A stretch of 38,085 nt of DNA. It comes from Floccifex porci. GTDB taxonomy: Bacteria; Bacillota_I; Bacilli_A; Erysipelotrichales; Erysipelotrichaceae. The DNA is taken from contig NZ_VUMM01000019.1 of NCBI RefSeq assembly GCF_009696175.1, positions 1 through 38,085 on the forward strand, read 5' to 3'. The position numbers and the translations under genes were made by a program. The notes beneath the pieces are model-generated. The model saw only the letters and a program-made list of their open reading frames with translations, was not told the origin of the DNA and ran no database searches. Of the stretch, positions 8,469 to 27,467 are shown one piece after another. Numbering within the stretch: the stretch's first letter is position 1; each line of letters opens with the position of its first letter.

Positions 8469-8488
8469 TTTCAATATTTTCATTGAAA
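8469..8488. promoter_or_regulatory. Palindrome over the ilvE -35 box, possible operator
   Basis: TTTCAAT (8469-8475) and ATTGAAA (8482-8488) form an inverted repeat separated by 6 bases; the right arm contains the -35 box. Its position suits a repressor site. It is only loosely like a CodY box (the centre is too wide), so the regulator is unknown. Confidence 0.35.
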
Positions 8489-8511
8489 AGAATGTAAAGT
8501 AAGAATATAAT
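8483..8511 (+). promoter_or_regulatory. Promoter of ilvE
   Basis: TTGAAA (8483-8488), exactly 17 bases, TATAAT (8506-8511). Predicted start near 8518, giving a leader of about 26 bases with no room for a T-box. Confidence 0.8.
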
Positions 8512-8543
8512 AACAAATAGAATTCGAGAGTGGAGGCGTATTT

Positions 8544-9566: not shown

Positions 9567-9592
9567 GAAGGATGGTTAAATCCTTCTTATTT
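9561..9592. terminator. Bidirectional terminator between ilvE and the surface protein gene
   Basis: AAATAAGAAGGAT (9561-9573) pairs with ATCCTTCTTATTT (9580-9592), 13 bp with a 6-base loop. It includes the stop codons of both convergent genes (9564-9566 plus, 9576-9578 minus). Confidence 0.85.
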
Positions 9593-11396
9593 TTCTTATA
9601 AATAAAACAATCAAAAGGAAAGATACCGATGAGATAGCGATATAAAAACCTGTATGCAGGTCAAAACCTGTTAGCGGAACGATTATTTTCTGATCTTTCA
9701 TAATGATTTCATCTGTATCTTCATTTACAGTGAAATGAATATCTTCTGCTTTCTGGTATCCATCAGGTGCTTTTAATTCACATAAAGTATATTCTTCATT
9801 CAGAATCAGATTTTTAATTGTGTGTGGATCTGTATCAGAAATCCATGTTTCGATTTCATTTCCATCTTTGTCCAGAATCGATAAAGTGGCTCCTTTTACA
9901 GGCTGATTGTTTTCATCTGTTTTTTTGATGTCAATGTCTTTTGTTTTTAGATTAACCATAGTAATGCATTGACTTTTATCAGCAATAAACTGAATATCTT
10001 CACCTTTTATATAAGAAGGCAAAGCCTGTTCTTCATGTAAAGTATAAGTCTGATTCCATTTTAAATTAGATATTGGATGAATGGTTTCATATCCGTATTC
10101 ATCTATATGATAAGTAATTCCATCTATCTTGTACAGGATACCTTCCTCTGTAACAATAAAATTATCAAAAGATTCTTTATTTTTCAGTCTTTCTGTCTCT
10201 TCTTTAGACAAATCAACAATTTTTTTGCCTGTAATCCATTCATCAATCACTTCTCCATCTGAATTTAAAACCTGTAAATGTACATCACGTACTGGATTTT
10301 TGAACTGATCGCTTTTATACACAAAAATCTGATGATTGATCAGATGAATCTGCTTTAAAGAGTCTATATTCTTAATGGTAAAGGAAATGGGATCACTGCA
10401 GATATAACCTTCGGCTGCTTGTTCTTCAATTAAAGTATAAGTCTGGTTTTTTAATAAATTGGATACAACATAACTTTGATTTTCACTGATCCACTTATCA
10501 ACTGTATTTCCACTTTCGTCTACAATTTTTAAAGATGTACCTGGAATATAATTTCCACTTTCATCTACTTTATGAATTTGTGCTTTACCTGTGGCAATGG
10601 AAACATTTATTTTTACATTATTGGGAATGGATTTTTCTAGAGAAAGGACATTTTGAGAAGTATTTGAAATATAGACTGTAGAAGAAAGGGCTTCATCTGA
10701 AGAATAAAAACAATCAAAAGATAATGAACCTTCCGGATTGTCTCCTGGTTCTAACCATACTGTCAGAGAATTTCCTTCTTTCAGATAATGTATACCATTG
10801 TTTTCTTTTTCAATATAGTGTTCAAAAACGTTGGATGAATCCAGTAAAGTGATTGAATTCTCTTTGCCATATCCATCAAGTAAAACATCATTTGTTTCAA
10901 AACAGACAGGTGTTTTCATAATCTGAATATTCTGATTCACCTGATCCATTTTAGCTTGTATATCGCTGTGATAAGTAAAGTTTGATACACTTTGATCCAG
11001 CAGTTTCCATAATAAGATCTGACAAGCCAGATCCATTTCATTGGATGGATCCTTTTGAATCCCAAGTGCATAGATCCATCCCGCTTCCTGACACAGTGAA
11101 GGAGAATAGATACTTTCCATAGACATTGCCTGATAGTCACTGGCACCATTTAATGCACTTACATTAGGTTCTACGCAATGAACCGCTTTACTTCCAATGT
11201 GAATCTGTCCATACAGATCAATAATCTGATTTCCTGTCACATTGTCTGTGTAATAAACTTTCCATTTTTCAGGCACTGTTTGTGGACTGCTTCCATAAGG
11301 GTAGGTTACCTGAATACTTGTTTGTCCATATATTGATGATGGAAACAGGCACAAACAGAATAAGATTGATAATAAAATGTGTTTGAATTTTTTCAT
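9576..11396 (-). CDS. Wall-anchored thioester-domain / CnaB-repeat surface protein
   Basis: A 606-residue pilin- or adhesin-like protein. Residues 1-24 are a signal peptide. A probable thioester domain follows: the HCVEP motif (Cys74) and ACQILLW (Gln126) match the Cys and Gln that form an internal thioester able to bond covalently to host targets. A beta-rich linker leads to three CnaB/SpaA-type domains at about 271-355, 356-483 and 486-572. Each opens with a Lys-containing strand and closes with a YTL-E motif (YTLIEE, YTLHEE, YTLCE), the residues used for isopeptide cross-links. The C-terminus is VPLTG (573-577), one hydrophobic segment and RKIRRI: a sortase signal with Val instead of the usual Leu. 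No sortase or other pilin gene is adjacent. AGGAGGTG precedes the ATG. Confidence 0.85.
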   Translation of the reverse strand: MKKFKHILLSILFCLCLFPSSIYGQTSIQVTYPYGSSPQTVPEKWKVYYTDNVTGNQIIDLYGQIHIGSKAVHCVEPNVSALNGASDYQAMSMESIYSPSLCQEAGWIYALGIQKDPSNEMDLACQILLWKLLDQSVSNFTYHSDIQAKMDQVNQNIQIMKTPVCFETNDVLLDGYGKENSITLLDSSNVFEHYIEKENNGIHYLKEGNSLTVWLEPGDNPEGSLSFDCFYSSDEALSSTVYISNTSQNVLSLEKSIPNNVKINVSIATGKAQIHKVDESGNYIPGTSLKIVDESGNTVDKWISENQSYVVSNLLKNQTYTLIEEQAAEGYICSDPISFTIKNIDSLKQIHLINHQIFVYKSDQFKNPVRDVHLQVLNSDGEVIDEWITGKKIVDLSKEETERLKNKESFDNFIVTEEGILYKIDGITYHIDEYGYETIHPISNLKWNQTYTLHEEQALPSYIKGEDIQFIADKSQCITMVNLKTKDIDIKKTDENNQPVKGATLSILDKDGNEIETWISDTDPHTIKNLILNEEYTLCELKAPDGYQKAEDIHFTVNEDTDEIIMKDQKIIVPLTGFDLHTGFYIAISSVSFLLIVLFIRKIRRI

Positions 11397-13404: not shown

Positions 13405-14355
13405 ATGCAAGATTGGATACATGAACTGTATAGAGATTCAAACAATATTCTTGTTGAGTTAAATAAAAAAGAATGTCTCGACATTGAAATCTTTCAAAGA
13501 ATGGCAAATGATTGTTTCTGTCTGCAATGTGTTCTGCAGGATAAAGAAAAGGCAAGAATTCTTTACTCGATTCAAAACAAAGTATCTTTACATGATTTTA
13601 TAAGCCAATATGTATTTGAAAAAGAAGAAGGATACCAGTTTCTGATTCATTTAATGGAAAGTGCAATTGCCATCAATCGAAATAAACCGGTCTATTTTCA
13701 TCCAAAAGCTATATTTTTAGATGAACATGGAGAAAATTTTTATTTTATGGTGATTCCAATTTCTTTACAGGAATGGATGTTTACCACAAATCAGATTAAA
13801 GAATGGATTGAATATCTTTATAAAAATATACAAACAACCACTGCCTTCGAAATACCAGGATATTTGATTCGTTTTCTAAACTGTAAAGAATTTTCTCTTC
13901 CTAATCTGATACTGGGTTTAAAGAATCTTCAGCAGTTGTACCATCCAAAACGATTTTCTTTCTTGAAAAAGAAAAAAGAATCTTCTTTTCGTGTACAGGA
14001 AGCCATTCATCCACTTTATATTGAAGAAATAAAAGAAGAAGTATCGGATAATCAGACTCGAATTTTAGGCATGACAATGGAAGAGAAGGCATATGTAGAA
14101 ATACATCGTAAGATGTATGAATTAAGTGAAACGACTTTAATTGGACGATCTTTTGGATGTGACATTCAGCTTAAAGAAGAAGAGGTATCTTTAACGCATT
14201 GTAAAATTGTATGTGAGAATCATCGTTATTATATACAGGATTTAAAAAGTTCAAATGGGACCTTTTTAAATGGAAAACGTGTACAAAGAAAAATGCGTCT
14301 GAAGGATGGTATGGAAATTCAAATTGCGAATGTTAAATTTGTATTTCATCAATGA
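13405..14355 (+). CDS. FHA-domain protein of the type VII-like locus (DUF6382 + FHA)
   Basis: Cytoplasmic, 316 residues, first gene of the operon. Residues 1-180 look like the DUF6382 domain found in front of FHA domains in clostridial proteins. The pattern SLHDFIS, then FHPKAIFLDE, then FYFMVIPI also resembles the cut-down kinase fold of EssB proteins. A basic linker (186-200) leads to a C-terminal FHA domain (about 230-316) with the phosphothreonine-binding residues Gly247-Arg248-Ser249, Ser262-x-x-His265 and SSNGT (282-286). It should bind a phosphorylated partner. The kinase-like protein encoded next (4-base ATGA overlap) is the obvious candidate to modify that partner. GGAGGG precedes the ATG. 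Confidence 0.85.
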   Translation: MQDWIHELYRDSNNILVELNKKECLDIEIFQRMANDCFCLQCVLQDKEKARILYSIQNKVSLHDFISQYVFEKEEGYQFLIHLMESAIAINRNKPVYFHPKAIFLDEHGENFYFMVIPISLQEWMFTTNQIKEWIEYLYKNIQTTTAFEIPGYLIRFLNCKEFSLPNLILGLKNLQQLYHPKRFSFLKKKKESSFRVQEAIHPLYIEEIKEEVSDNQTRILGMTMEEKAYVEIHRKMYELSETTLIGRSFGCDIQLKEEEVSLTHCKIVCENHRYYIQDLKSSNGTFLNGKRVQRKMRLKDGMEIQIANVKFVFHQ

Positions 14356-15707
14356 TGAATAATCGATATGTTTCTATCTGTACACTAAAAGTAAATGATT
14401 TTTCTCGCTGTGATATCGTTCAGGATCAATTTACAGGAAGAAACTGTATCAGTAAAACAGTTCTTTTAAATTCCGATCCCGTTTATATTCACCAGTTTCG
14501 TATGGAAATTCAGGTATTATCTTTGATACAGCATCCTTTTATGCCTCAAATTATAGATGTATATGAAACAAAGGATTCTCTTGTACTGATTGAAAATAAG
14601 ATTCCTGGAATCTCTTTAAATCAATGGAAACAGGAACATCCAGTATTAAAATATTTAATTCGAGATTATTTGCTGATACAGGCTATGAATCGATTTGAAT
14701 ATTTACATTCTCTTGATATTTTATACATTGATATCAAAGAAGAAAATTTCATGATACATCGTAATCATCTCTATTTAATTGATTTTAATTCCTGCACTTA
14801 CAATCATTCCAGTTATGTTTCTTTTGCATCCTATTCTAATGCATCTCCAGAATTAAAAAACACAGAATCCAAAGATAGAACCAGTGATATTTATGCGTTT
14901 GGTACATTCATGAAAACGTTCTATTTTACGAATCCTTTCATCATACGCACTTGTTTAAATAAAGAATCAAAAAAACGATTTTCATCTTTTTCAAGTTTAA
15001 AAATAGCCTTTATTATAAGAAAATTCATAACAATTCTAATTTCTATATTTCTGTCTGCTATACTTTTATTTGTTGTGAATCAAAGAAAGGAGGACATTCT
15101 TTTACAGGCTTATTTAAAAGATCCTCAAAATCAGATTTTGTTTCTAAATGCTTATGAGAAAGATTTAAAGAAACAGAAAGGAAATCAGACTGAAAAAATT
15201 CAAATGAATTTATACCAGTGGATCGAAAAAGGATTTATAAAAGACTGTTTAAAAAATTCAAAGATCAGTTACTATTTAATGAAACAGGCGATTCTTTCTC
15301 AAAATGATATGTACTGTCAATATTTTCTGGAAAACATACCAGAAGATATTTTAAATCAATATCCAGAAACCGTTTCTTTTATGAGACAGATCAAAAGGTT
15401 ATCCGCATCTTTTGCCCAGAAATATTTAGTGTATGTATATGAAAGTAAAGACATTGATTTATTGTCTGTTTATATGTCGTTACTCATTTCCAGTCAGATT
15501 ATTCTGGATGATTGTGAACTTCTATATAAGATCAATTGTGAGATTAAAGAAGATCAGGTGGAATTTGAACCATGTGCCATTCAATATCTGCAATATTGTC
15601 TGTTCTTAATAAGTGAAGATCATCCATGCCCTCCCATTCCTGGTTTATATCAGAAATCAGATCAATTTCAGATACACCAATTAATTCAATACATCGAAAG
15701 GATATAA
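14352..15707 (+). CDS. Membrane-anchored Ser/Thr kinase-like protein with EssB topology
   Basis: 451 residues. Residues 1-215 have a protein-kinase plan: a candidate lysine Lys35, helix-C Glu52, a catalytic loop IDIKEEN (Asp127, Lys129, Asn132), the metal-binding Asp144 in IDFN, a SPE element (165-167), SDIYAFG (Asp179) and a closing Arg209. Deviations are the loss of the Gly-rich loop, HRD read as YID and DFG read as DFN, so activity is uncertain. One membrane helix follows (about 221-243), then a 205-residue helical region expected outside the cell. Size and order match EssB/YukC, a pseudokinase of the classical type VII system, but more catalytic residues are kept here. Translation is coupled to the FHA gene; no separate binding site is seen. 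Confidence 0.8.
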   Translation: MMNNRYVSICTLKVNDFSRCDIVQDQFTGRNCISKTVLLNSDPVYIHQFRMEIQVLSLIQHPFMPQIIDVYETKDSLVLIENKIPGISLNQWKQEHPVLKYLIRDYLLIQAMNRFEYLHSLDILYIDIKEENFMIHRNHLYLIDFNSCTYNHSSYVSFASYSNASPELKNTESKDRTSDIYAFGTFMKTFYFTNPFIIRTCLNKESKKRFSSFSSLKIAFIIRKFITILISIFLSAILLFVVNQRKEDILLQAYLKDPQNQILFLNAYEKDLKKQKGNQTEKIQMNLYQWIEKGFIKDCLKNSKISYYLMKQAILSQNDMYCQYFLENIPEDILNQYPETVSFMRQIKRLSASFAQKYLVYVYESKDIDLLSVYMSLLISSQIILDDCELLYKINCEIKEDQVEFEPCAIQYLQYCLFLISEDHPCPPIPGLYQKSDQFQIHQLIQYIERI

Positions 15708-15710
15708 ATT

Positions 15711-17399
15711 ATGTTACCTCCTATTAATCCATTTATAACTTTTATTAATGACAATCAGACCATAACCATACAGTGCAATCCGATTGTAGACTGTTCGCAA
15801 AGCACTTTTATCTATGAACAGGAAGAATTGGATTCTTTAAGTTTTACTTTACAGAATGAAGGAAGTACTTATCTTGTATATTGCTTAAAAGACAAAGATG
15901 GAAATATATTAGAAGAAAATCAAAAAGAGTTTTTTCTGGATACTACAGCCCCAGAAATTAAGGTATCTATAGATGATTTTTATATCGATTCTGAATTTGT
16001 ATTATGGGATGAATGTACCCTGCAGATTGATATAGAAGATGCTTCGAAGGCAGAAACAAAATTGTATGTAGATGGTCAAAGTGTAGATTTTCAAAATGAA
16101 TTGTTTGTGACAAAAGAAAATAAGGAAATATGTATTGAATGTTGTGATGAATATAACAATAAAAGTAAAAAGATTCTGAAAATTGATTCACAGCCAATAT
16201 CCATTACAAGCAATATTCAAACGGAATATACGACACAAAGTGAAATTGTTTTCGATTCCAGCATCGAATGGGATTTCTTAGAGATTGAAGAATATCTGGA
16301 TGGAGAAAAAATCGATACGATAAAACAGGGGACAACCTTTGATAAGACAGGTTTTTATCAATTTATTCTTAGAGATACAAGATATCCTTATTTAGTAAAA
16401 GAAGTACAGTCCTTTACTTTTACAAACCAGCTTCCCTCTGTTGTTTTGCCAGATTCTTATGTGACAAATCAGAACCAGATTTTACAGTATGAAATAAATT
16501 GTCCTTATTTTAAAAGTGGAAACCTTATGGTGAATGGACAATATTATTCATTAGAAGATACGATATCATTTGAAGCCAATGATGATGAAAAAAGAATCTA
16601 TCAGCTGCAGATAACAGTGCAGGATCTGTTTGATCAGACGGTATTTGAACAAAGAGAGTATGTAATTGATCGTCGACATTTGAATTTTGATTTCTTTTTC
16701 AACAATACAAGTGTAGAAAAAGAACAGATTTATTTTACTACCTGTATAAATTATGACATTCAATTAAATAAAGAAGCAGAAGTAACAGTAAAACAATGGA
16801 TCGAAAATCAGCCAATCTATACAGATCTGTATACATCCTTACAATTATTAAAACCTAATCAGACATTGGTCTGTCAAATCTGTTTGGAGGATGGATTGAA
16901 TGAACCTGTAAACAGACAATATATTTTTTATAAATTGAATGAAGTTATAGAAGTCAGTGAAACAGAATCAAAACCACTTAAACGAATCTGGAGCGTAAAA
17001 GAGGACAAAGTTCTTCTAAAAGAAGAAAAAGAAGAAATTATGCCTGTATGCAAGATTCTTGTGAATGGCCAAGAAACAGATAAAGCTTCTTTTTTCGATA
17101 CCATTCAAATTGTATTTTTAAAGGATCCATCCAATTATCTGAAGATGGTTAAGATCAATGGAAAAGAAATATCAATGGACAAGTTTAAAACGAATTCATT
17201 ATCTCAATTTGTTTATGAGTTTAAGGCGATTCAGCCTTCCTATAAAATAAATGTGATAATGGAAAACTCTATGAAAAAAGAAAATCAAAAAGATAGTGAA
17301 ATAAAAGTAAGTCAAAAATGGTTAATGATATTTATCATTCCTATATTGTTTCTAATAAAAAAACTTTATGAAAAGAATTCAAATATATCATCAGAATAA
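15711..17399 (+). CDS. Ig-like repeat protein with a C-terminal membrane anchor
   Basis: 562 residues of repeated beta-strand modules resembling bacterial Ig-like folds, for example FFLDTTAPEI followed by a Val/Asp-rich strand pattern, repeated with LPSVVLPDSYVTNQ and other units. One hydrophobic helix near residues 536-551 is followed by KKLYEK. There is no signal peptide, and none is possible: a stop codon (15705-15707) lies just upstream in frame. The protein is rich in Cys (CNPIVDC, CIECC, CQIC). It is therefore either a cytoplasm-facing tail-anchored protein or exported by an unusual route. It sits where EsaA or EssA might be expected, yet resembles neither. Gap to the kinase gene is 3 bases. 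Role unknown. Confidence 0.7.
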   Translation: MLPPINPFITFINDNQTITIQCNPIVDCSQSTFIYEQEELDSLSFTLQNEGSTYLVYCLKDKDGNILEENQKEFFLDTTAPEIKVSIDDFYIDSEFVLWDECTLQIDIEDASKAETKLYVDGQSVDFQNELFVTKENKEICIECCDEYNNKSKKILKIDSQPISITSNIQTEYTTQSEIVFDSSIEWDFLEIEEYLDGEKIDTIKQGTTFDKTGFYQFILRDTRYPYLVKEVQSFTFTNQLPSVVLPDSYVTNQNQILQYEINCPYFKSGNLMVNGQYYSLEDTISFEANDDEKRIYQLQITVQDLFDQTVFEQREYVIDRRHLNFDFFFNNTSVEKEQIYFTTCINYDIQLNKEAEVTVKQWIENQPIYTDLYTSLQLLKPNQTLVCQICLEDGLNEPVNRQYIFYKLNEVIEVSETESKPLKRIWSVKEDKVLLKEEKEEIMPVCKILVNGQETDKASFFDTIQIVFLKDPSNYLKMVKINGKEISMDKFKTNSLSQFVYEFKAIQPSYKINVIMENSMKKENQKDSEIKVSQKWLMIFIIPILFLIKKLYEKNSNISSE

Positions 17400-20300
17400 A
17401 TGTGAATGTATATGTTTTGAAAAACAGATTGAATATGCGAATTTTCGACTGATAGAACAGGAAAATAAAGTCTATATTTGTTTAGACAATCAAAAAATGA
17501 TCTGTCTTAAACCTGTAAGATATAAAGAATATGTATTTATTCCTGTACCCATTCGAACATTTTCTATCTGTACTATTAAGAATCAGTTTATCGTTGGAAG
17601 AGATAAAAATTGCAATTGTCAGATTAATGATTTAGATATATCCAGTATTCATTTTTCAATTGAAAAAAAAGAAGATCATTTCTATCTGAAAGATGAGAAA
17701 AGTACAAATGGTGTCTATGTAAATGGATCAAAAGTAAATCAAATTCGTTTAAAAGATGGAGACGAGATATGGATCACAAAATATCAATTCTTTTATTTTG
17801 GATGTTATCTAATGGTTCCTATAGAACAGAAAAAGGAAGAATTAAAAAGTCATTGTATGCAAATAGAACCAGTAAAAAAAGAAAGAAAACAGGTTCTAAA
17901 AATTGAAAGAAAGCCAATTGTACCAGAATCATATATATGGGAAAACGCACCCGTTAAGACACCTTTATTTCAATCGATTGGTTCTTCCTTTATGATTTTA
18001 ACATCTTCTTTACTATCGTTTCTTATTTTGTATTTTATGCATCCAGAACAAAAGAATCAGCTGATTGCCACATTTTTTATGTCTTGTTCCATGGCTGTTG
18101 GATTTCTGTTTTTTGGTTTATACAATCGTAAACAATCGTTTCAGAATTCAATGAAACAGATTCAATTTAAAGAACACCAATATTTTGATTATTTAAATAT
18201 GTTATATGAATCGATAAAAGAAAAAGAACAGAAAATCAATGTTCTTTTAGAAGAACAGTTTAATGATTTTATGTCTCATCAATATCAATTTGATGATGTA
18301 TTAGTCGATTATTCCCATCAAAAATATTCTTATTTTCAATTGAAAGAGCCTCCTTTTCAATATTTAAATTCTGATATGGATAAAAATATAAAAAAATGGA
18401 TTCAAATGCATGAAATCCGTGTGCAGATACCCATTTATCTGAAACAGATCAAAGCCCTCCAGTTAACAAATTCTATAAATGGATGGATGCAGGTACTATG
18501 CGAATGTCAAAACGATCTGAAATATGTACTGGTTGGAAATTCATTTAAAGAGTGTTATTTTTTATCTCATCCAAAATGTATGGAAGAAGGATATCGTTTA
18601 TGGATATTTGATGAAAAAAGTAAACAGCTTTTTCAGAAGCGAAAAAAGGAAAATCAGAATTATTTATATATTTTTGATTCAACCATCTGCATAGATACAG
18701 TCTATAAACCTTCTTTCCATTATCAGTTCAATTATTCAATTTATCAGAAAGATTGTTTATCCACAGGAACTGAAAAAAATATTTCTTTTAAGGAAAGAAA
18801 GAATACGGTTCAGCTGGAAGTGGAATTGGGTATGGATGAACAAGGGGAAAAAATTATTCTAAATCTGGATGAAACAAAAGATGGAGTACATGGACTGATT
18901 GCTGGAACAACAGGATCTGGAAAGTCAGAATTGTTGTATACGATTCTGATACAGCTGGCGATGAATAACAGTTGTTCACTTTTTCAATTTGTATTGATTG
19001 ATTTTAAAGGAGGAGCTTTTTCCCAGTCATTTGAAGACTTTCCTCATTGTGTGGCAACTATTACCAATTTAGACCGTGATTTAGATCGCTTTCTGGTTTT
19101 GATGAATTGCCTTATAGATACTCGTCAGAAACAATTAAAACATGCTGGTGTGAATCATATTAATGTTTACAATTTAAAAAAGAATCGTAAAATGAGTCAT
19201 TTGATGATTGTGATCGATGAATTTGCTCAATTAAAAGAACAAGCAAGGCAAGCTATGGCATCTATAAAGGAAATGGCACGTATTGGAAGATCTTTAGGAA
19301 TTCATCTGATTTTATCAACCCAGAAACCAATGGGAATTATTGATGAACAGATTTGGGCCAATACTTCCTTTCATATCTGTATGAAAGTGAATTCGAAACA
19401 GGATTCTATGGAAGTTCTGCACAATGATTTTGCGTATCATTTAAAAGAACCTGGACAATTTATCCTGCAAAGACAGTCTTGTGTAAAGGGGCATAGTTTT
19501 TATTTAAATGAAAAAGAAATGATATATCAGTTTGTGAATGATTATGATGAAGTTTTATATGAAAAAAAAGAAACAGAAACAAAGTTTGAACGTCTAAAAC
19601 AGAAAATATTGTCCTATCCTGAATCAAGAGTGGAACTGTTCTTACCAGTTTTATCTAAGTATCCTTTTCAAAATGAACTTCTGGTCTATGAAGATATAAA
19701 AGATGTGAAACAAATTCCCTTTGATCTGTATCATGGTCAATCTTTATATATACTAACGGATGATTTTTCCTGGATTCCACAAATTTTCTTTTATTTTAAA
19801 GATCCTGTATTTACTTATAAACTATCCATCCCTTATACAGATCGAGATTTTAAAGATATGAAGGCTTTATTTGAATGTACTTTTATTAAAGAACCATTCA
19901 CATTGATCGTTCTGGCAGATTCAGAATTTTTAGAAAATGTCGAATCCTTTCAGAAAAAGAATATACGTTTGATTGTACTGACAAAAAATCCTATTCATTT
20001 CAATACAGGAGTGAATCGATTTAAATGCTGCTGGAATGTTCATTCTAATGAATATATAAAAACTTTTTTTACTAAGTCACATCTATGCAATGAAAACTGG
20101 ATCGAAATCCAGAATGAATTGTATCCATTTCAGTTTCAGAAAAGAGACCCTTTCTATCAGAAAAAGAAAAAAGTTCATTTTGAATCTCATGTATATCTGG
20201 GAATTTGTCAAAAAGAGTGGGTGTATTGGGATACTAGAAGAAAACTGTTGATTGTATATGCGCAAAAGAGTTTAGAGAAAGATATAAAAGACAAGATAAA

Positions 20301-20514
20301 GGATTGGCCTTGTCTAGATAAAATTCAAATGATTCATATTCCATCATCCATAGCTTTTTTTCAGTCCCAGGAATATATTTTGAATCAGTATGAATGGGAT
20401 ATATTATGGTTTGGTCCAGGATACCTGGAATATGGATTCTATATAAAAAGAAAGAATATACCTGCTTCTTTTCTTATGTTCTGGGATGAAAGAAAAGCTT
20501 ATAGTCTGGAGTGA
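17368..20514 (+). CDS. essC: EssC-like FtsK/SpoIIIE ATPase, reduced form
   Basis: The motor of the type VII-like system, 1048 residues against about 1,480 for EssC. Order: a beta-rich N-terminus, an FHA domain at about 66-145 (Gly77-Arg78, Ser92-x-x-His95, STNGVYVNG), two membrane helices (205-224, 232-251), a long helical linker, then one FtsK/SpoIIIE ATPase with Walker A GTTGSGKS (513-520), LIDFKGGAF, Walker B VIDE (615-618), ARIGRSLGIHL and LSTQKP. The remaining 343 residues hold weak relics at best (LLIVYAQKSLEKDIKDKI), with no second Walker A. Classical EssC has two further ATPase modules. The gene overlaps the previous one by 32 bases and has no clear ribosome binding site. Confidence 0.9.
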   Translation: MKRIQIYHQNKCECICFEKQIEYANFRLIEQENKVYICLDNQKMICLKPVRYKEYVFIPVPIRTFSICTIKNQFIVGRDKNCNCQINDLDISSIHFSIEKKEDHFYLKDEKSTNGVYVNGSKVNQIRLKDGDEIWITKYQFFYFGCYLMVPIEQKKEELKSHCMQIEPVKKERKQVLKIERKPIVPESYIWENAPVKTPLFQSIGSSFMILTSSLLSFLILYFMHPEQKNQLIATFFMSCSMAVGFLFFGLYNRKQSFQNSMKQIQFKEHQYFDYLNMLYESIKEKEQKINVLLEEQFNDFMSHQYQFDDVLVDYSHQKYSYFQLKEPPFQYLNSDMDKNIKKWIQMHEIRVQIPIYLKQIKALQLTNSINGWMQVLCECQNDLKYVLVGNSFKECYFLSHPKCMEEGYRLWIFDEKSKQLFQKRKKENQNYLYIFDSTICIDTVYKPSFHYQFNYSIYQKDCLSTGTEKNISFKERKNTVQLEVELGMDEQGEKIILNLDETKDGVHGLIAGTTGSGKSELLYTILIQLAMNNSCSLFQFVLIDFKGGAFSQSFEDFPHCVATITNLDRDLDRFLVLMNCLIDTRQKQLKHAGVNHINVYNLKKNRKMSHLMIVIDEFAQLKEQARQAMASIKEMARIGRSLGIHLILSTQKPMGIIDEQIWANTSFHICMKVNSKQDSMEVLHNDFAYHLKEPGQFILQRQSCVKGHSFYLNEKEMIYQFVNDYDEVLYEKKETETKFERLKQKILSYPESRVELFLPVLSKYPFQNELLVYEDIKDVKQIPFDLYHGQSLYILTDDFSWIPQIFFYFKDPVFTYKLSIPYTDRDFKDMKALFECTFIKEPFTLIVLADSEFLENVESFQKKNIRLIVLTKNPIHFNTGVNRFKCCWNVHSNEYIKTFFTKSHLCNENWIEIQNELYPFQFQKRDPFYQKKKKVHFESHVYLGICQKEWVYWDTRRKLLIVYAQKSLEKDIKDKIKDWPCLDKIQMIHIPSSIAFFQSQEYILNQYEWDILWFGPGYLEYGFYIKRKNIPASFLMFWDERKAYSLE

Positions 20515-20518
20515 TAAT

Positions 20519-20755
20519 ATGAAAAAATATTTATTACATATTAAAGTACTGCCTCATCCTTATGTTCATGATATATGGATGAATAGTCAGGGAAATGTAG
20601 GAAGTTTTATCAAAGATATTTCGGGAAAATGGTTATGCGAAAGATATACGTTTGATCATTTCCTGTTTCATGTAGAGAACCGTAGAATATTAGACAATCA
20701 GAAAACCTGGCAAGAAAACTTTGTTTGTACAGGAGATCATCTTATTTTAGTATAG
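20519..20755 (+). CDS. YukD/EsaB-like ubiquitin-fold protein
   Basis: 78 residues, the size of YukD/EsaB (about 80). The end is the best match: a strand (FHVENRRIL), a loop, and then ENFVCTGDHLILV, as in the GDRL-type ending of the ubiquitin-like YukD fold. In classical systems this small cytoplasmic protein is required for secretion and sits beside EssC, as here. The ATG at 20519 is chosen because GGAG lies 8 bases upstream, straddling the end of the EssC gene; an earlier in-frame codon at 20486 would place the start inside it. Sequence similarity is weak, so the call rests on size, ending and location. Confidence 0.7.
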   Translation: MKKYLLHIKVLPHPYVHDIWMNSQGNVGSFIKDISGKWLCERYTFDHFLFHVENRRILDNQKTWQENFVCTGDHLILV

Positions 20756-20769
20756 GAGAATAAATAATT

Positions 20770-21063
20770 ATGAGAATAAGTGTAAATTATGAACAATTAA
20801 TGCAGCAAAGTCAATGTTTATATGTTAAAGCAGATGAGTATCATCAGATTATCGAATCCATTCAACAAAGAATTCATGGAATGGCATCTATCTGGCAGGG
20901 AGAAGACCATTTAATGTTTGTATCTAAATTTGATGAACTATATCCAAAATTAAACCAGATGACACAGGTATTAGAAGAATATGCTTCTTTATTACAGAAA
21001 AGTGCATCGATGTATCAGCAAATTCAACAGGATCGCATTGCCCAGGCTCGTATGCTGGGATAG
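20770..21063 (+). CDS. WXG100-family (EsxA-like) protein
   Basis: 97 residues forming a helix-turn-helix hairpin, with the turn motif Trp-Gln-Gly in ASIWQGEDHLMF. It opens with the usual ISVNYEQLMQQS pattern (compare IKVTPEQL in Esx proteins). Members are secreted as dimers and are both substrate and essential partner of the type VII ATPase. There is no YxxxD/E tail in register: the C-terminus has Tyr followed by QQIQQD. The signal may come from its partner, the next gene. GGAG lies upstream and the gap to the ubiquitin-like gene is 14 bases. Confidence 0.92.
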   Translation: MRISVNYEQLMQQSQCLYVKADEYHQIIESIQQRIHGMASIWQGEDHLMFVSKFDELYPKLNQMTQVLEEYASLLQKSASMYQQIQQDRIAQARMLG

Positions 21064-21074
21064 AGAGGATAATT

Positions 21075-21359
21075 ATGTTACAGATTTCATATGAAGATGT
21101 AAGTCAGTATGCGAATCAGATGAGTGCTTTAAAATTACAGATGATGGATACATTTTCGCAAATTCAAATGCAGATGAATTCAATAATGGATATATGGAAT
21201 TCACCGGCTTCTATAAAATTTCAGGAAGAGTTTCAATTACTGGTTCCTGCGTTTTCCTCATTTGTAGAAATAATGGAATTGTATGCACAATTCTTATCAC
21301 AGACGGCATTCACTTATAAAGAAAATGAAGAGATGTTAACAAGTGCTATCGGATCCTAG
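21075..21359 (+). CDS. Second WXG100-type protein with a WNS turn
   Basis: 94 residues, the same helical hairpin as its neighbour. The turn reads IWNSPASIKF, so Gly of the WXG motif is Ser. The C-terminal part carries Tyr-Lys-Glu-Asn-Glu, which fits the YxxxD/E export signal that the first WXG100 protein lacks. Two unequal WXG100 proteins, one with the turn Gly and one with the tail signal, suggest a heterodimer as in EsxA-EsxB, but this is inference. AGAGGA precedes the ATG. Its last codons overlap a short helical gene in another frame. Confidence 0.85.
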   Translation: MLQISYEDVSQYANQMSALKLQMMDTFSQIQMQMNSIMDIWNSPASIKFQEEFQLLVPAFSSFVEIMELYAQFLSQTAFTYKENEEMLTSAIGS

Positions 21360-21522
21360 AATAACGTATTATCAGGAATTATTGTACACCCTCACACAGA
21401 TTAAAAATAATCTTTCTTCTTTAACAGGAAGTTTTCAGGAAGAAGAAATTCTCCTTTCCAGAATCAATCAACTGGCAGCTCTGATTTATTTACAGATCGA
21501 GGAAGTTCAACATGAAGATTGA
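21343..21522 (+). CDS. Small helical protein (59 aa) between the WXG100 and substrate genes
   Basis: Found by reading the 152-base gap between two genes. A GTG start at 21343 opens a frame that runs to TGA at 21520-21522. It overlaps the WXG100 gene by 17 bases and the next gene by 11, the tight packing seen throughout the operon. The product begins VLSDPRITYYQELLYTLTQI and is predicted to be two amphipathic helices rich in Gln, Leu and Glu. Such small helical partners lie beside toxin-like substrates in many type VII loci, where they act as targeting factors; that role is inferred. The binding site (GAAGAGA, 10 bases away) is poor and no relative was recognised. Confidence 0.55.
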   Translation: MLSDPRITYYQELLYTLTQIKNNLSSLTGSFQEEEILLSRINQLAALIYLQIEEVQHED

Positions 21523-22291
21523 AACAAATCTGATTAGACAAATGGCAAATCAGCTGCTATCACAAATTCAGTCCCTTTCTTTTAATAATTCACAATTGTT
21601 TACAAATCATCAGAAGATAATAAATGATATATATAATCTATCAAATTATTTTAGTGTGTCCTGTAATCGATGGGAAGAAAACGAAGATGTATTGGTTCAA
21701 ACATCTAAAGGAAAATTGAATTATTCTCATAATGAAACAGGAAATGCATTAGGGTGGTTATTTAAGAAAAACAATTCTCTAACTTTTTCACAGACAATTC
21801 AATATCAATATGGAAATGCAGCTCTTTCCTATAAAGCATTAAAAGGCAATATTAGTGCTTTAAAATTGTATGCAAATGGAAAAATCCAATGTCGATTATG
21901 GAAAGACAAACAATTTTATCCGTCTTTACAAATTGTGGCAAAAGCAGATGCTTCCTTATTGTCCGCAAATGCTAATTTACGTTTAGGAAATGATAAGATC
22001 TATGCCAGGGCAAATGCGAATGGCTGGCTGGGGGTCTGTTATGCCAATGCCAAAGCAGTATTAAATCCAGGGGAACAAAGTCTTTCTTTAGGGGCAGGTG
22101 CATCTTTTCTAAAAGGATCGGTGAGCTGTTCTTTCCATTTTTTATCAGCCAGTATCACGCTAAGTGGAACCGGGTCCATTGGAAGTGTGGAAGCCAATTT
22201 AGAATACAGTCATAAAAATAGAGAATGGGAGTTTGGCTCTAAGCTGGGATTTATTTGTGGATTGGGATTTAAAGTAAAAGTCAATTATTAG
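21512..22291 (+). CDS. Candidate type VII substrate, glycine/alanine-rich C-terminal domain
   Basis: 259 residues. Residues 1-55 are helical (METN-type opening, LIRQMANQLLSQIQSL), like the targeting part of LXG-type substrates but shorter. From about residue 75 the protein is built of short beta-strand repeats rich in Ala, Gly, Ser and Asn, such as AKADASLLSANANLRLG, ARANANGWLG and LGAGASFLKGSVS, ending GFICGLGFKVKVNY. Similar runs occur as pre-toxin linkers in polymorphic toxins, but no toxin or catalytic motif follows. It has no signal peptide. GAGGAA lies 7 bases before the ATG. Either a toxin-less effector, a surface or pore-like protein, or a fragment of a larger substrate. Confidence 0.6.
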   Translation: MKIETNLIRQMANQLLSQIQSLSFNNSQLFTNHQKIINDIYNLSNYFSVSCNRWEENEDVLVQTSKGKLNYSHNETGNALGWLFKKNNSLTFSQTIQYQYGNAALSYKALKGNISALKLYANGKIQCRLWKDKQFYPSLQIVAKADASLLSANANLRLGNDKIYARANANGWLGVCYANAKAVLNPGEQSLSLGAGASFLKGSVSCSFHFLSASITLSGTGSIGSVEANLEYSHKNREWEFGSKLGFICGLGFKVKVNY

Positions 22292-22300
22292 GAGGTTAAG

Positions 22301-22573
22301 ATGAAAGAATATTTACCCATTGGAAGCGTTGTAACTTTAAAAAATACAAAGAAAAGAATTATGATCGTGGGGCGTTTACAGAATCTGATTCATCAGGATG
22401 AAGTTTACGATTATGCCGCTGTACTGTATCCGGAAGGATTGATTGATAGTGAACATTTTTATTTATTTAATCAGGAAGATATAGACTGTTTATTTTACAT
22501 CGGCCTTCAGGATAATGAAGAATTTAATTTCCGTTATACTTTACTGGAAAAATCAAAGGAGCTTAAAAAATAA
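22301..22573 (+). CDS. DUF4176 family protein, last gene of the type VII-like operon
   Basis: 90 residues. The opening LPIGSVVTLKNTKKRIMIVGR, then YDYAAVLYPEGLIDSEHFYLF and NQEDIDCLFYIG, is the characteristic DUF4176 pattern. The family is found next to WXG100 and type VII genes in streptococci and other Bacillota; its function is unknown, with accessory or immunity roles proposed. Small beta-rich cytoplasmic protein without signal or membrane segment. AGGAGG precedes the ATG. Its stop lies in a terminator shared with the convergent PrsA-like gene, which marks the end of the locus. Confidence 0.85.
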   Translation: MKEYLPIGSVVTLKNTKKRIMIVGRLQNLIHQDEVYDYAAVLYPEGLIDSEHFYLFNQEDIDCLFYIGLQDNEEFNFRYTLLEKSKELKK

Positions 22574-22581
22574 GCTCCTTT
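22555..22581. terminator. Bidirectional terminator at the end of the type VII-like operon
   Basis: AAAGGAGCTTA (22555-22565) pairs with TAAGCTCCTTT (22571-22581), an 11-bp stem with a 5-base loop of A. Stop codons of both convergent genes (22571-22573 plus, 22580-22582 minus) lie in or at the stem. Confidence 0.85.
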
Positions 22582-23476
22582 ATTCATCTTCTTCTGATAA
22601 TTCTGGATAATCCAATAAATATTCAGGATTATTGACTTTTAAATAATCGAAAATTGTCTGATCGTATATTTTTAAATCGTATTTTGTGAAGTAATATACC
22701 CACATTTCTTTTTCAAAATTTTCACCAGCTGAAATGGTTTCTTCATATTTTGAAAGATTTTTATCATAATCCTTGTCTGAAACAATGGCTACATAAGAAT
22801 AAGTCGTACCATCATCCATTGTGAATACTTCATCAATAACTCCAGTATCTTTAGTTTTATAAGCCTGATTGATCAGACGAGTTGGAATATCTGTATTTAA
22901 TGTTGTACAGACAATTTCTTCATTAGAGAAGCTTGAATCTGCACTGGTATAAGTATCATAAACTTCCTGAAGCTCTTTTCCATCTTTTAAAGCGTCGATG
23001 GCTTTCTGTGCGGTTTTATCATCATCACATTTTAAGATAGTCACAATAGAAGGTTTATATGTTTTTTGGATTTCTTTCTTATTGTCCTTAAAATATTGAG
23101 TCTGCAAACGGTTTCCCTGCTGTTCAGGAATGAGGACGGTATTAATATAATCATCTTTATCTTCATATCCCATTTGTTTTAACTGATCTTCAAAATCGGA
23201 ATAATCACTGGCAAGATCATCATAACTTTCCTGTGCTGCTTTTCGGATATCATCATCCATTCCGATAACTTCATCATATACTGCATTTTTCGCAAGCTGA
23301 AGTGTTAAAGCTCCACCATTAGATGCTTTGATTAAATTATATTCATCCTGTTTTGTATAAGTGGTAGATCCTACTGTAAATAAAGTATCTTTTCCATTCT
23401 GAATACTGGCCTGTGCTCCAGAGCATCCACATAAACCAATTAACAGAAGACAAGAAGCCCATTTCATTTTATTCAT
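22580..23476 (-). CDS. PrsA-like foldase lipoprotein
   Basis: 298 residues. The N-terminus MNKMKWASCLLLIGLCGC is a lipoprotein signal with Cys at the lipidation site. A SurA/PrsA-type N-terminal helical domain follows (TVGSTTYTKQDEYNLI, NAVYDEVIG), then a parvulin-like segment at about 140-235 (KPSIVTILKCDDDKTAQKAI, KELQEVYDTYTSA, GVIDEVFTM) and an acidic tail. It would help proteins fold at the outer face of the membrane. Parvulin catalytic residues are not clear, so it may act as a chaperone only. The ATG at 23476 has GGAG 9 bases upstream. It overlaps its upstream neighbour by 8 bases, so the two are co-translated. Confidence 0.82.
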   Translation of the reverse strand: MNKMKWASCLLLIGLCGCSGAQASIQNGKDTLFTVGSTTYTKQDEYNLIKASNGGALTLQLAKNAVYDEVIGMDDDIRKAAQESYDDLASDYSDFEDQLKQMGYEDKDDYINTVLIPEQQGNRLQTQYFKDNKKEIQKTYKPSIVTILKCDDDKTAQKAIDALKDGKELQEVYDTYTSADSSFSNEEIVCTTLNTDIPTRLINQAYKTKDTGVIDEVFTMDDGTTYSYVAIVSDKDYDKNLSKYEETISAGENFEKEMWVYYFTKYDLKIYDQTIFDYLKVNNPEYLLDYPELSEEDE

Positions 23477-24521
23477 CTTCACCATCTCCTTCTGTTTTTA
23501 ATTGACTGGAAATATAATTTTCGATTTTCTTTTTCGTATTCTCATCTTTGTAAGTAATATCCAATTTTGATGCATAGGATTCAATGGATTCCATTTCCAG
23601 TGTACTATTGGCAGATAGGAAAGCACTAACAAGAGAATCCCTGACATCTTCATTATCAGAATTTAATAATTTCTTTAAACTTGTTTCATTTACATAAACT
23701 TTATACATCATTGTTGAACCAGAACTTGTGGTAACGGAAATCCAATCGGATGTTTCTCCTTTTTTCAGATCCTGTGCTTGGCTGGCAACTTCATTTGGAA
23801 GTCCAGTTCCATAATAAGAATAAGTGGTACTTGTAACATCGGTTGAATCTGTATATCCATAGAAACCTTTATTATTTGCTGTAGATGTATCTTCAGAAAA
23901 TTCAGTTGCCGCTTTTCCAAAGCTTTCTTCTTTTATTTCTTTATCTACATTATCCATTTTCTTTTGTTCTTCATCACTGATGTTTTCAGAATCGGTAACG
24001 GAAATAGAAATAATGGAAACGGTTCTTGGATTTCTTTGTTCCACTGCTTCTTTATATGTATCAAAGTTTTTTATAACAAATTCGGTATTCATCTGTTTTT
24101 CTTTTACACTGGTCATACAGAAATCAAAGCAGGCATCTTCCCCTTCAAAACCATAATTTGCCAGTTCCTGAGATAAATTTACTTCATAGTTTTCTCCATA
24201 TTGAGATTCAAAATTAGAACGGATAGTAGATTCCAATTCTTTTGCTTTTTCTTCTAATTCCTTAGAATCCGATACAGTTTCGTTGATAACTGCTTTTTTA
24301 TACATCTGGTATAACAAGGATGAATCAAATTGTGCTTCTTCCTCATAAAATTCATCTGCACTAATATTATCATTGGCTGCACTTGCCAGTAATTCCTGTC
24401 CATCTGCTTTTTTACCAGATACATTATATCGATTCATATCGAAAATAAAATAGGTTACAAAAGATAGAATGACAATCGCAATTACTACCACAAACCAATT
24501 GGATTTTAGTAGTTCAATCAT
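23469..24521 (-). CDS. Membrane-anchored PrsA/parvulin-like foldase
   Basis: 350 residues, first gene of a two-gene operon. A single uncleaved N-terminal helix (residues 8-27, FVVVIAIVILSFVTYFIF) anchors it outside the membrane. The ectodomain has a SurA_N-like helical part (TVSDSKELEEKAKELESTI) and a parvulin-like part at about 165-285 with SIISISVTDSE, SFGKAATEFSEDTS, NNKGFYGY, LPNEVASQAQDLKKGETSDW and MYKVYVNE, the usual order of this fold. The tail is very acidic. Rich in Ser, Thr and Asp as expected for an exposed protein. AGGAGG precedes the ATG. Likely works with the lipoprotein encoded next. Confidence 0.8.
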   Translation of the reverse strand: MIELLKSNWFVVVIAIVILSFVTYFIFDMNRYNVSGKKADGQELLASAANDNISADEFYEEEAQFDSSLLYQMYKKAVINETVSDSKELEEKAKELESTIRSNFESQYGENYEVNLSQELANYGFEGEDACFDFCMTSVKEKQMNTEFVIKNFDTYKEAVEQRNPRTVSIISISVTDSENISDEEQKKMDNVDKEIKEESFGKAATEFSEDTSTANNKGFYGYTDSTDVTSTTYSYYGTGLPNEVASQAQDLKKGETSDWISVTTSSGSTMMYKVYVNETSLKKLLNSDNEDVRDSLVSAFLSANSTLEMESIESYASKLDITYKDENTKKKIENYISSQLKTEGDGEDE

Positions 24522-24630: not shown

Positions 24631-24654
24631 ATTTCAGTGAAAAGAGGAATAAAT

Positions 24655-25470
24655 ATGGCAGAACTAATCATTAAAGATTTACATGTATCAGTCAATGATA
24701 TAGAAATATTAAAAGGAATTGATTTAACTGTACGTTCCAATGAAAGACATGCATTAATGGGGCCCAATGGAAATGGGAAATCAACATTGCTTCAGGCCAT
24801 TATGGGAAACCCTAAATATATTGTGACAAAAGGAAGCATTACATTTGATGGACAGGATGTATTGTCTATGGAAGTAGATGAAAGATCAAAAGTCGGATTG
24901 TTTTTAGGTATGCAGTACCCAAGTGAAATATCAGGGGTAACTAACTCTGATTTTTTAAGAAGTGCAATCAACGCAAGAAGAGAAAAACCAATTTCTTTAT
25001 TTAAATTTATTAAAGAAATGGATAAAGCCATTAAGCAACTGGATATGAAACCTGATTTGGCACACCGTTTTTTAAATGATGGATTTTCGGGTGGGGAAAA
25101 GAAACGTAATGAAATTGTTCAAATGATGATGCTTAAGCCACAGATTGCGATGCTGGATGAAATTGACAGTGGTTTAGACGTAGATGCTTTACGTATCGTT
25201 TCTGATGCCATCAATGAATGCCAGAAAGAAAATGGTATGGGATTGCTGATCGTATCTCATTATGCCCGTTTTTATGATTATCTAAAACCAACACATGCAC
25301 ATATTTTAGTGGATGGAAAAATTGTTCTATCTTCAGATGCAAGCCTTGTTGAAAAAGTAGATACGATGGGTTACGAATGGATCGAACAGGAACTTAACAT
25401 TACTTTAAAGAAAGAAGAAAAGAAAGCACCTTTATCTTTAGGAAGCTGTGGTGCAAAGAAGGTGGCTTAA
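24655..25470 (+). CDS. sufC: Fe-S cluster assembly ATPase SufC
   Basis: 271 residues. Soluble ABC-type ATPase that drives the SufB-SufD scaffold during iron-sulfur cluster assembly. Walker A GPNGNGKST (36-44), signature FSGGEKKRNE, Walker B MLDEIDSGLD and the switch His in LLIVSHYAR. The IDSGLD form and the KKR after the signature are SufC hallmarks. A C-terminal extra tail (LSLGSCGAKKVA) carries a Cys. The ATG at 24655 is preferred over a GTG six codons upstream because AGAGGA lies between them. First gene of sufCDSUB; one base separates it from sufD. Confidence 0.96.
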   Translation: MAELIIKDLHVSVNDIEILKGIDLTVRSNERHALMGPNGNGKSTLLQAIMGNPKYIVTKGSITFDGQDVLSMEVDERSKVGLFLGMQYPSEISGVTNSDFLRSAINARREKPISLFKFIKEMDKAIKQLDMKPDLAHRFLNDGFSGGEKKRNEIVQMMMLKPQIAMLDEIDSGLDVDALRIVSDAINECQKENGMGLLIVSHYARFYDYLKPTHAHILVDGKIVLSSDASLVEKVDTMGYEWIEQELNITLKKEEKKAPLSLGSCGAKKVA

Positions 25471-25471
25471 T

Positions 25472-26230
25472 ATGAGTGAAGCCATACAGACAGTTTATTT
25501 GAATGAATCCAATCATTTTCAGATGGAATCCGAACAGTCTTTATTCTGTCATATGCAGAAAAGTAAAATTGATTTACATATTGTATGCCAGCAGGATTCC
25601 AAAAGTCATATTTTTCTATTCAATCAGATGGAAAATGGACAGTTGAATATAGAAATTGAATGCAAGAAAGATTCTTATTGCATGATGAGCTTGCTGGATC
25701 TACAGTCTTCGGGTTTGAATTTATCATTAAATGTGAATTTAAAAGAAGAAGGAGCTGAATTTGATATTGATACAGCTCAATTATGTGATGAAAATGGAAA
25801 GAAAAAAGGAAAGATTGAAATTAGACATCAGTCCAGTCATACATATGGGCAAATTCATAATTATGCTGTTTTATGTGAAAATGCCTATTATGAAATGTGG
25901 GCAAATGGAAATATAGAGAATGGATGTCATGAATCTCAGTCTCATCAGAAAACCAGAGTGTTAACTTTATCAAAAGGGCATACAGCTAAAGTGACTCCTC
26001 TTCTTTTGATTGGAGAAAATCAGGTAAAAGCTTCTCATGCTTTATCCATAGGACAGCCAAATGAAGAACAGCTTTATTATCTTCAATCCAGAGGGCTTTC
26101 AAAACAGCAGGCTTTAGGATTATTAAGTATAGGGTATTTTATGCCAGTTATTCATCAGATTGAGGATGAAAATCAGCAGATTCTACTGCAAAGTGAAATG
26201 GAACGGAAAGTAGGTTTATATGGACGTTAA
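25472..26230 (+). CDS. sufD: Fe-S cluster assembly protein SufD
   Basis: 252 residues, shorter than the usual 400 or more, because the N-terminal helical region is largely missing. The beta-helix core is present (NLSLNVNLKEEGAEFDIDTA, KIEIRHQSSHTYGQIHNYAV), followed by the SufB/SufD C-terminal pattern SHALSIGQPNEEQLYYLQSR and GLSKQQALGLL. Within the complex SufD pairs with SufB and with SufC. The start is the ATG at 25472, two bases after the sufC stop. It overlaps sufS by 11 bases. The short form is common in some Firmicutes, so truncation by mutation is not implied. Confidence 0.88.
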   Translation: MSEAIQTVYLNESNHFQMESEQSLFCHMQKSKIDLHIVCQQDSKSHIFLFNQMENGQLNIEIECKKDSYCMMSLLDLQSSGLNLSLNVNLKEEGAEFDIDTAQLCDENGKKKGKIEIRHQSSHTYGQIHNYAVLCENAYYEMWANGNIENGCHESQSHQKTRVLTLSKGHTAKVTPLLLIGENQVKASHALSIGQPNEEQLYYLQSRGLSKQQALGLLSIGYFMPVIHQIEDENQQILLQSEMERKVGLYGR

Positions 26231-27455
26231 TAAAATTCGTGAAGATTTTCCTATATTAAATCGAACAATGTGCCAGAAACCATTGATATACTTTGATAAC
26301 AGTGCCACAACTTTAAAGCCAGATTGTGTTATTCAGACCATTACAAATTATTATACTTATTTAGGAGCCAATGCACATCGTGGTGATTATGAAATGAGTG
26401 GACAGGTGGATGCTCAATTTGAAGGTGCAAGAAAGATAGCACAGAAATTTATCAATGCCAGATATCCAGAAGAAATTGTTTTTACTTCAGGAAGTACAAT
26501 GGGATTGAATGAAATCTGTATCATGCTTACTTCTCAATATTTAAAGGATGGAGATGCAGTTTTAACCTGTCAAAGTGAGCATGCTTCCAGCATCTTACCG
26601 TGGATGAAGGCATCAAAAAAAATTGAACTACAGTATATACCTTTAGATTCACATGGAAAGATTACACTGGAAAATGTTAAAAAAGCATTAAATGATAAAG
26701 TAAAAGTGGTTTGTTTAGCACAAGTATCCAATGTATTGGGATATCAGACACCAATCAAAGAAATATCAGAGTTGTGTCATGCCAGAAATATTATTCTGAT
26801 TGTAGATGGAGCACAAAGTACACCGCATATAAAAATCGATGTACAGGATCTGGATGTGGATTTCTTTGTGATGAGTGCGCATAAAATGTGCGGACCGACT
26901 GGAGTAGGAATATTGTACGGTAAAAAGAAATATCTGGATGTACTGGAACCAGTATTTTATGGAGGGGAATCAAATGCTCGTTTTGATCAGTGCGGGCATG
27001 TCCTTTTAAAAGAATCCCCTTTAAAATTTGAAAGCGGAACACAGCCAATAGAAGCGGTTCTTGGAATGGGTCAGGCAATGAAATATATCGAAGAAATTGG
27101 CCAGGATCGCATTCATGCCTATGAAGTTGAATTAAAACGATATTTTTTAGATAAAATTAAAGATATGAATCATATTGTTGTATATAATAAAGATTCTGAA
27201 TGTGGAATTGTTACATTTAATGTAATGGATCATGGAAAAATGATTTTTGCTCAGGATGTTGCCAGCTTCCTGAATACGAAAGGAATCGCTGTTCGTTCAG
27301 GCCAGCATTGTGCAAAACTGTTGCCTGAAGTATTAAATGTCAATTCAACGGTACGTGCCAGTTTTTATTTTTATAATACAAAAGAAGAAATAGATACATT
27401 TGTAGAAGCTTTAAAAGAAGTGACATTAGAAAACTGTGTTAATATTTTCTTTTAG
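26220..27455 (+). CDS. sufS: Cysteine desulfurase SufS
   Basis: 411 residues. PLP enzyme that takes sulfur from cysteine and passes it to SufU. The PLP lysine is Lys222 in SAHKMCGPTGVG, preceded by the cofactor-binding VDGAQSTPH. The persulfide Cys is Cys364 in RSGQHCAKLL, the tight-loop RxGxHCA form of class II (SufS/CsdA) enzymes. N-terminal FDNSATTLKP is also typical. Overlaps sufD by 11 bases and lies 12 bases before sufU. Confidence 0.96.
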   Translation: MDVNKIREDFPILNRTMCQKPLIYFDNSATTLKPDCVIQTITNYYTYLGANAHRGDYEMSGQVDAQFEGARKIAQKFINARYPEEIVFTSGSTMGLNEICIMLTSQYLKDGDAVLTCQSEHASSILPWMKASKKIELQYIPLDSHGKITLENVKKALNDKVKVVCLAQVSNVLGYQTPIKEISELCHARNIILIVDGAQSTPHIKIDVQDLDVDFFVMSAHKMCGPTGVGILYGKKKYLDVLEPVFYGGESNARFDQCGHVLLKESPLKFESGTQPIEAVLGMGQAMKYIEEIGQDRIHAYEVELKRYFLDKIKDMNHIVVYNKDSECGIVTFNVMDHGKMIFAQDVASFLNTKGIAVRSGQHCAKLLPEVLNVNSTVRASFYFYNTKEEIDTFVEALKEVTLENCVNIFF

Positions 27456-27467
27456 AAAGGATAAAAT

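Follow-up and report, generated by a model that had tools for sequence, protein, structure and literature searches.

The locus described here raises the question of what becomes of a type VII secretion system (T7SS) when its EssC-type ATPase has a single intact motor module, and of what the remainder of such a protein is. The ATPase gene lies on the plus strand at positions 17368..20514 of a 38,085-nucleotide stretch of DNA from the gut-type bacterium Floccifex porci (called the window hereafter), encodes 1,048 aa, and ends with the stop codon TGA at 20512-20514. Its product is laid out as an FHA domain (residues 71-144), a transmembrane region (~200-255), a D0 region, the D1 motor (477-701), and a tail (702-1048). 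A motif scan for [AG]xxxxGK[ST] recovered exactly one Walker A motif (GTTGSGKS, 513-520) and no relaxed P-loop beyond residue 700, and Pfam recognized FtsK_SpoIIIE once (2e-24) together with one FHA domain, which bears out the claim of an earlier reading of these letters (hereafter the sequence-only reading) that the 1,048 residues hold a single Walker A. The Walker B motif that this reading had put at residues 615-618 does exist, but it spans 613-618 (MIVIDE, ending in D617-E618). Both motifs belong to D1 (18796..19470, plus strand; R574, R586), the sole intact ATPase module of the protein.

Several lines of evidence place the protein among EssC/EccC ATPases. D1, an FtsK/SpoIIIE domain, has both Walker motifs and the conserved arginines, of which 574 and 586 are invariant between the short-tailed ATPase and full-length EssC proteins, and two WXG100 genes stand alongside, downstream of the ATPase gene; the D2 and D3 P-loop NTPase folds expected after D1 are represented only by relics, detected by profile comparison. 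The NCBIfam EssC model TIGR03928 covers residues 475-701 only (4e-79; 266 bits, where the cut-off is 778). In an AlphaFold model of the full-length protein, D1 reached a pLDDT of ~70-88, and the top Foldseek match of the model was EccC of Thermomonospora (4nh0), with FHA-domain matches lower down. The phosphothreonine-type residues of the FHA domain (G77, R78, S92, H95, N114, and G115) are invariant in eight sequences. Only one canonical P-loop is also found in several full-length (~1,500 aa) EssC proteins, and D3 of Staphylococcus aureus EssC is without any canonical P-loop (PMC4925161). From these sequence comparisons, a single Walker A is not rare in itself, and what is unusual is the physical collapse of the D2 and D3 modules.

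A frame error or misassembly, which the sequence-only reading had itself named as an alternative, can be rejected on the open frames of collinear homologues, the conservation of the tail, and synteny. A search with a tail profile gave full-length matches in 16 genomes from at least seven Erysipelotrichaceae genera, with open frames of 1,051-1,153 codons; with a length of 1,057-1,147 aa, the gene also occurs in four further genomes from within the genus and in three from elsewhere in the family, the ATPase tail of the nearest sister species is 48% identical, and the same ubiquitin-like and WXG100 genes follow downstream. The placement in Erysipelotrichaceae is backed by contig G016:C254, whose sequence is identical to a public record assigned to that family (L061), a record with a doubtful species label. 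At the loci read, the gene order is FHA/DUF6382, kinase, Ig-like, EssC, ubiquitin-like, WXG100, WXG100, 259 aa, and DUF4176, with small gaps, an order kept mostly, not always, among genomes with the short-tailed ATPase. TIGR03928 matched in 229 of the 272 family genomes (some of these matches being FtsK) and above its cut-off in only nine, which makes a reduced EssC the usual form in Erysipelotrichaceae. Among the sequences compared, the short-tailed ATPase is the most collapsed well-conserved version of EssC in this family, and EssC open frames that are shorter still (~900 codons) occur in another of its genera.

Other departures from the full-length form were seen as well. In another genus, locus L058 (genome G034, 8077-10698) encodes an EssC-type protein of 873 aa with ~208 residues beyond D1. 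In another genus, where the locus is a different one, an EssC of 1100 aa (L177 and L049, G008) has D1 and a P-loop-bearing D2 but stops near position 1040 of the 1296 in the model, so that most of D3 is missing, apparently an independent loss of D3. Two scans of viral contigs found no relatives with the short tail.

What, then, is the tail? Its 347 residues carry no Walker motifs, and a direct profile comparison with distant full-length EssC proteins was weak (P ~0.02-0.15), so that proteins of intermediate length were needed as a bridge. Such a set was available from Erysipelotrichaceae (L050, L052, L056, L057, L059, and L060; 1,197-1,340 aa): like the window's protein, these ATPases combine D1 with a degenerate D2 and a D3 cut to ~130 residues, but unlike in the window's protein, their D2 is still nearly full length. 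In hhalign comparisons, the tail matched the intermediate-length EssC across 344 columns (P=2.6e-13), and the intermediate-length EssC matched full-length D2-D3 along its whole length (P=1.6e-33). With the D1 end trimmed, the matches were module-specific: the D2 part of the tail aligned with intermediate D2 (P=2.4e-7) and not with intermediate D3 (P=0.8), whereas the D3 part aligned with intermediate D3 (P=3.9e-7) and not with intermediate D2 (P=0.43), and none of 60 column-shuffled decoys reached any observed score.

Inspection by eye pointed the same way, with a weak D2 signature (D-x-P-x-x-Q), an FQ near the end of D2, an L-G opening D3, and a terminal D-I-L-W-F-G-P-G that is the counterpart of the GIWxGxG terminus of D3. 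An unforced alignment with nine full-length proteins, T7SSe-like or related, paired the tail motifs and left gaps at the P-loop positions. We accordingly delimit a D2 relic at 19585..20172 (plus strand; residues ~740-935, ~196 residues, without P-loop) and a D3 relic at 20173..20511 (plus strand; residues ~936-1048, ~113 residues, ending in a DILWxGxG motif). By these comparisons, the tail consists of D2 and then D3, each of them shrunken and neither cleanly deleted. The weak relics that had been suspected in the C-terminal part are confirmed by hhalign through the intermediates, and the collinear, module-specific matches with shuffled controls rule out that the tail is a newly acquired, unrelated domain.

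The bridge also shows where D3 has shrunk: intermediate D3 aligns to both ends of full-length D3, with ~110 middle columns missing. Since the D3 relic aligns with this D3 lacking its centre, one may ask whether the tail is a single fused pseudo-ATPase, with a D2 front and a D3 back, that adds another ring without catalytic activity beneath the hexamer of D1, so that a D2-like tier would be kept in structural terms. The need of S. aureus complex assembly for D2 (PMC9436818) would agree with this, but the predicted tail models are of low confidence, and we consider the fusion unlikely. The comparison of a predicted tail structure with D2 and D3 that the sequence-only reading had proposed was run twice and yielded nothing usable, with a tail pLDDT of 20-40 both for the full length (21 distant sequences) and for the tail (10 sequences), from inputs that left out close whole-genome relatives of the ATPase.

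We then consider how the relics have evolved. Relative to the sister species, identity is 67% in D1, 57% in the D3 relic, and 39% in the D2 relic, and dN/dS (NG86) is ~0.19, ~0.19, and 0.34, respectively, values that are approximate at a dS of 1.4-1.7, which is near saturation. The D3 relic thus appears constrained about as strongly as D1, and its residues G945, W1014, G1016, and G1018 are invariant. In a tree of the D1 segment, the short, intermediate, and full forms lie as a series, and a branch with SH-aLRT 99 parts the short forms plus three from genus g3 from the rest; the T7SSe-like locus L066 belongs to the full-length clade nearest the intermediate forms. Rooting with FtsK, an extremely distant outgroup, puts the root within the short forms by way of a very long branch, and the tree is read as unrooted.

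These rates bear on whether the system is simply decaying, with the tail a degenerating remnant en route to loss. The fast evolution of the D2 relic, the still shorter frames (~900 aa) of some family members, and the lack, at the locus, of any evident T7SSe phosphatase or small membrane genes speak for decay; set against them are the open frames in 16 genomes of at least seven genera, purifying selection on both D1 and the D3 relic, catalytic residues that are intact in D1 as in the neighbouring kinase, and a syntenic operon kept across genera, all of which make decay very unlikely. The same rates make plausible the proposal of the sequence-only reading that the tail keeps a reduced site, as purifying selection acts on the D3 relic much as it does on D1. 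In its full form, this alternative holds that a minimal D3 remnant, with a stripped-down pocket, still recognizes a signal on the WXG100 pair or on the 259-aa protein. The D3 relic is the better-conserved part of the tail and holds the four invariant residues, and EsxA compatibility rests on more than D1 (PMC13355648); on the other side, the middle of D3 is missing, the low-confidence tail predictions locate no pocket, and conservation may equally reflect assembly. We regard such residual recognition as rather unlikely.

The missing modules are not encoded elsewhere. As the sequence-only reading had suggested, the genome (2.02 Mb, 98.8% complete) was searched for a separate D2-D3 protein with PF01580 and a D2-D3 profile, and none was found: PF01580 matched D1 of the short-tailed ATPase, FtsK of the chromosome, and, on contig C6, a HerA-like ATPase; the full-length D2-D3 profile matched only D1 and FtsK, the rest being noise. 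The HerA-like ATPase (G000, contig C6, 9406-9576) runs to ~1,134 codons, includes a long insert rich in Gly/Ser/Thr, and is distant from the FtsK domain.

As to cargo, Pfam PF04740 detected no LXG protein in the genome, a search whose scope is that single model, with Rhs, reverse-order lipases, and short-LXG types outside it, and both WXG100 genes of the genome lie inside the T7SS locus. Across the family, LXG was found in three of 272 genomes (two above cut-off). All short-tail genomes without a second EssC have exactly two WXG100 genes, and the intermediate-tail genomes likewise have two and no LXG. Three or more WXG100 genes occur mostly where a full-length EssC is also present (11/12 vs 4/153 genomes), a contrast that mainly reflects full-length EssC arriving as a second system and is no proof of causation.

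The two WXG100 proteins (20770..21063 and 21075..21359, both plus strand) match Pfam WXG100 at 1e-11 and 1e-8 and resemble TseA and TseA2, respectively. The first keeps W-x-G, and the second has W-x-S and a C-terminal Y-x-E-N-E, a pattern found at 8/8 short-tail loci. The export signal is split over the pair at these eight loci, with WxG only in the first protein and YxxxE only in the second; at intermediate-tail loci, the second WXG100 protein also has YxxxD/E. The pair is probably a heterodimer in which the WxG and YxxxE halves would form one composite export signal. A 259-aa protein follows (21512..22291, plus strand), with a short helical N-terminus and a conserved Gly-rich C-terminal half; its family has a single copy in the genome, and it is a candidate cargo or component.

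The other genes of the locus reveal its affinities. Upstream of the ATPase lie genes, all on the plus strand, for a TseJ-like cytoplasmic protein (13405..14355, 316 aa) with a C-terminal FHA domain (5e-21) and a weak DUF6382 match (4e-5, just under the Pfam cut-off), which is conserved in syntenic loci; a TseD-like membrane Ser/Thr kinase (14352..15707, 451 aa; Pkinase 5e-21) with a transmembrane segment at ~226-243 by eye and a helical C-terminal part; and a TseI-like, tail-anchored, beta-rich (Ig-like) protein (15711..17399, 562 aa) with a C-terminal transmembrane segment by eye. The last of these has no obvious signal peptide and matches BsuPI weakly (0.0015), a counterpart from another genus matches Big_2 (0.004), and orthologues occupy the same locus position. 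Downstream on the same strand are a TseB/EsaB-like ubiquitin-fold protein (20486..20755, 89 aa), whose profile matches the gene that follows full-length EssC in other Bacillota (P=4e-6, 0/60 decoys), and a DUF4176 protein (22301..22573; PF13780, 5e-29) that is a syntenic member of the locus.

The kinase, which stands beside two FHA-bearing proteins, retains its catalytic residues: the kinase lysine, the alpha-C glutamate, the D-x-K loop, and the DF(N) aspartate are kept in eight orthologues and one more distant sequence. A phospho-threonine switch on secretion, formed by the kinase and the FHA proteins, is possible. Beyond the locus, two minus-strand genes at 22580-24521 encode a parvulin-type PPIase (PF00639) and a lipoprotein-like 301-aa protein; every sister species has both beside its T7SS locus, and other genera have at least one of them there. 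Also adjoining, at 24637-29298, is a Suf-type iron-sulfur operon (ABC ATPase, SufD-like, cysteine desulfurase, scaffold, and SufB-like), assigned by sequence reading only, in the place of which the sister species have genes of similar size.

Staphylococcal T7SSb, the comparison chosen by the sequence-only reading, is not the nearest relative, as the locus is T7SSe-like (PMC11217815). T7SSe is composed of A, A2, B, C, the kinase D, the PPM phosphatase F, H, the Ig-like I, the DUF6382 and FHA protein J, and K (PMC11217815). The window shares with it two WXG100 proteins (A, A2), a ubiquitin-like B, a membrane kinase D, a DUF6382 and FHA protein J, and an FHA-bearing ATPase C with phosphothreonine-type residues, and its Ig-like protein is the likely counterpart of I, given weak matches, a C-terminal transmembrane segment, and no clear signal peptide, while being much shorter than the T7SSd counterpart. 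The window's ATPase differs in having one intact module, whereas Garrett, Higginson and Palmer (2024) report for every TsxC a set of four NTPase domains at the C-terminus (PMC11217815). No PP2C family was found among the window proteins scanned (phosphatase F), no small membrane genes of the H or K type are evident between 13405 and 22573 by inspection with no dedicated model, and the DUF4176 and 259-aa genes are additions relative to T7SSe. By its gene content, the locus is T7SSe-like and reduced, and not a member of T7SSe. Compared with T7SSb (S. aureus, B. subtilis, and S. intermedius), the FHA region, two transmembrane segments, D0, and the D1 motor are shared, but T7SSb EssC keeps the D2 and D3 folds and needs them while those of the window's protein are collapsed, and T7SSb EssB is a pseudokinase where the window's kinase looks active.

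Work on T7SSb shows what such a collapse might cost. Only hydrolysis by D1 is reported as essential in B. subtilis and S. intermedius (PMC4925161, via earlier work; PMC13355648), and removal of D3 or of D2-D3 abolishes all secretion in S. aureus and S. intermedius (PMC9436818, PMC13355648); in S. aureus, D2 holds the secretion complex together and is needed for its assembly (PMC9436818). When EssC varies in its C-terminus, EsxA is still secreted but EsxC is not, which supports substrate choice by the C-terminus (PMC5994694), and in a model discussed in PMC13355648, D1 handles the EsxA-type cargo while LXG cargo falls to D2-D3. The sequence-only reading had concluded that substrate choice here must work differently or use a reduced site. 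That it must work differently does not follow: with no Pfam-detectable LXG protein, only the two WXG100 proteins of the locus, and the division of labour in that model, substrate choice may be almost unnecessary.

We hypothesize that the locus encodes a reduced, single-motor T7SS of T7SSe-like ancestry and narrow cargo, in which D2-D3 have shrunk to the needs of assembly, and we hold this to be probable. From a T7SSe-like ancestor, D2 and D3 would have lost their P-loops and large internal pieces with the reading frame kept, leaving D1 as the only nucleotide-driven motor, while the 347-residue tail probably helps assembly without catalysing anything and perhaps offers a minimal surface for docking in its conserved D3 relic. 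The system would secrete chiefly the adjacent WXG100 pair, possibly plus the 259-aa protein, and the modules that sort cargo could have shrunk once there were no large LXG toxins left for them. Together with the apparently active kinase, the FHA domains found on the ATPase and on the DUF6382 protein may place assembly under phospho-threonine control.

Several considerations temper this explanation. Since S. aureus and S. intermedius stop secreting when D3 or D2-D3 are taken away, the collapse in the window's protein needs compensation, which counts against it, and the two WXG100 genes and lack of LXG in intermediate-tail genomes make narrow cargo a family-wide trait that cannot alone explain the loss of D2 in some members only. 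More tentatively, and with chances somewhat short of even, we propose that the short-tailed loci form a distinct T7SS subtype of Erysipelotrichaceae, in which the motor has a single catalytic tier and serves just one WXG100 heterodimer under phospho-regulation.

A collapsed D2-D3 is not described in the T7SS-variant survey (PMC11217815) or in the EssC papers found, which cover the literature in part. The short-tailed ATPase is a natural counterpart of the truncation that kills laboratory-studied systems, kept here across genera. It bears on how substrates are divided among the EssC modules and on what D2 and D3 contribute if ATP has to be hydrolysed by D1 only; truncation has been fatal to every system tested, and S. 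aureus and S. intermedius give conflicting results on D2. Having no detected LXG and a single WXG100 pair, the system makes it possible to test directly whether D1 serves EsxA-type and D2-D3 LXG cargo, and its small motor may be easier for structure determination. Overall, if the more tentative subtype proposal is true, these bacteria would provide a natural demonstration that D1 alone powers type VII secretion and recognizes EsxA-type cargo, and that D2-D3 become dispensable once LXG toxins are gone.
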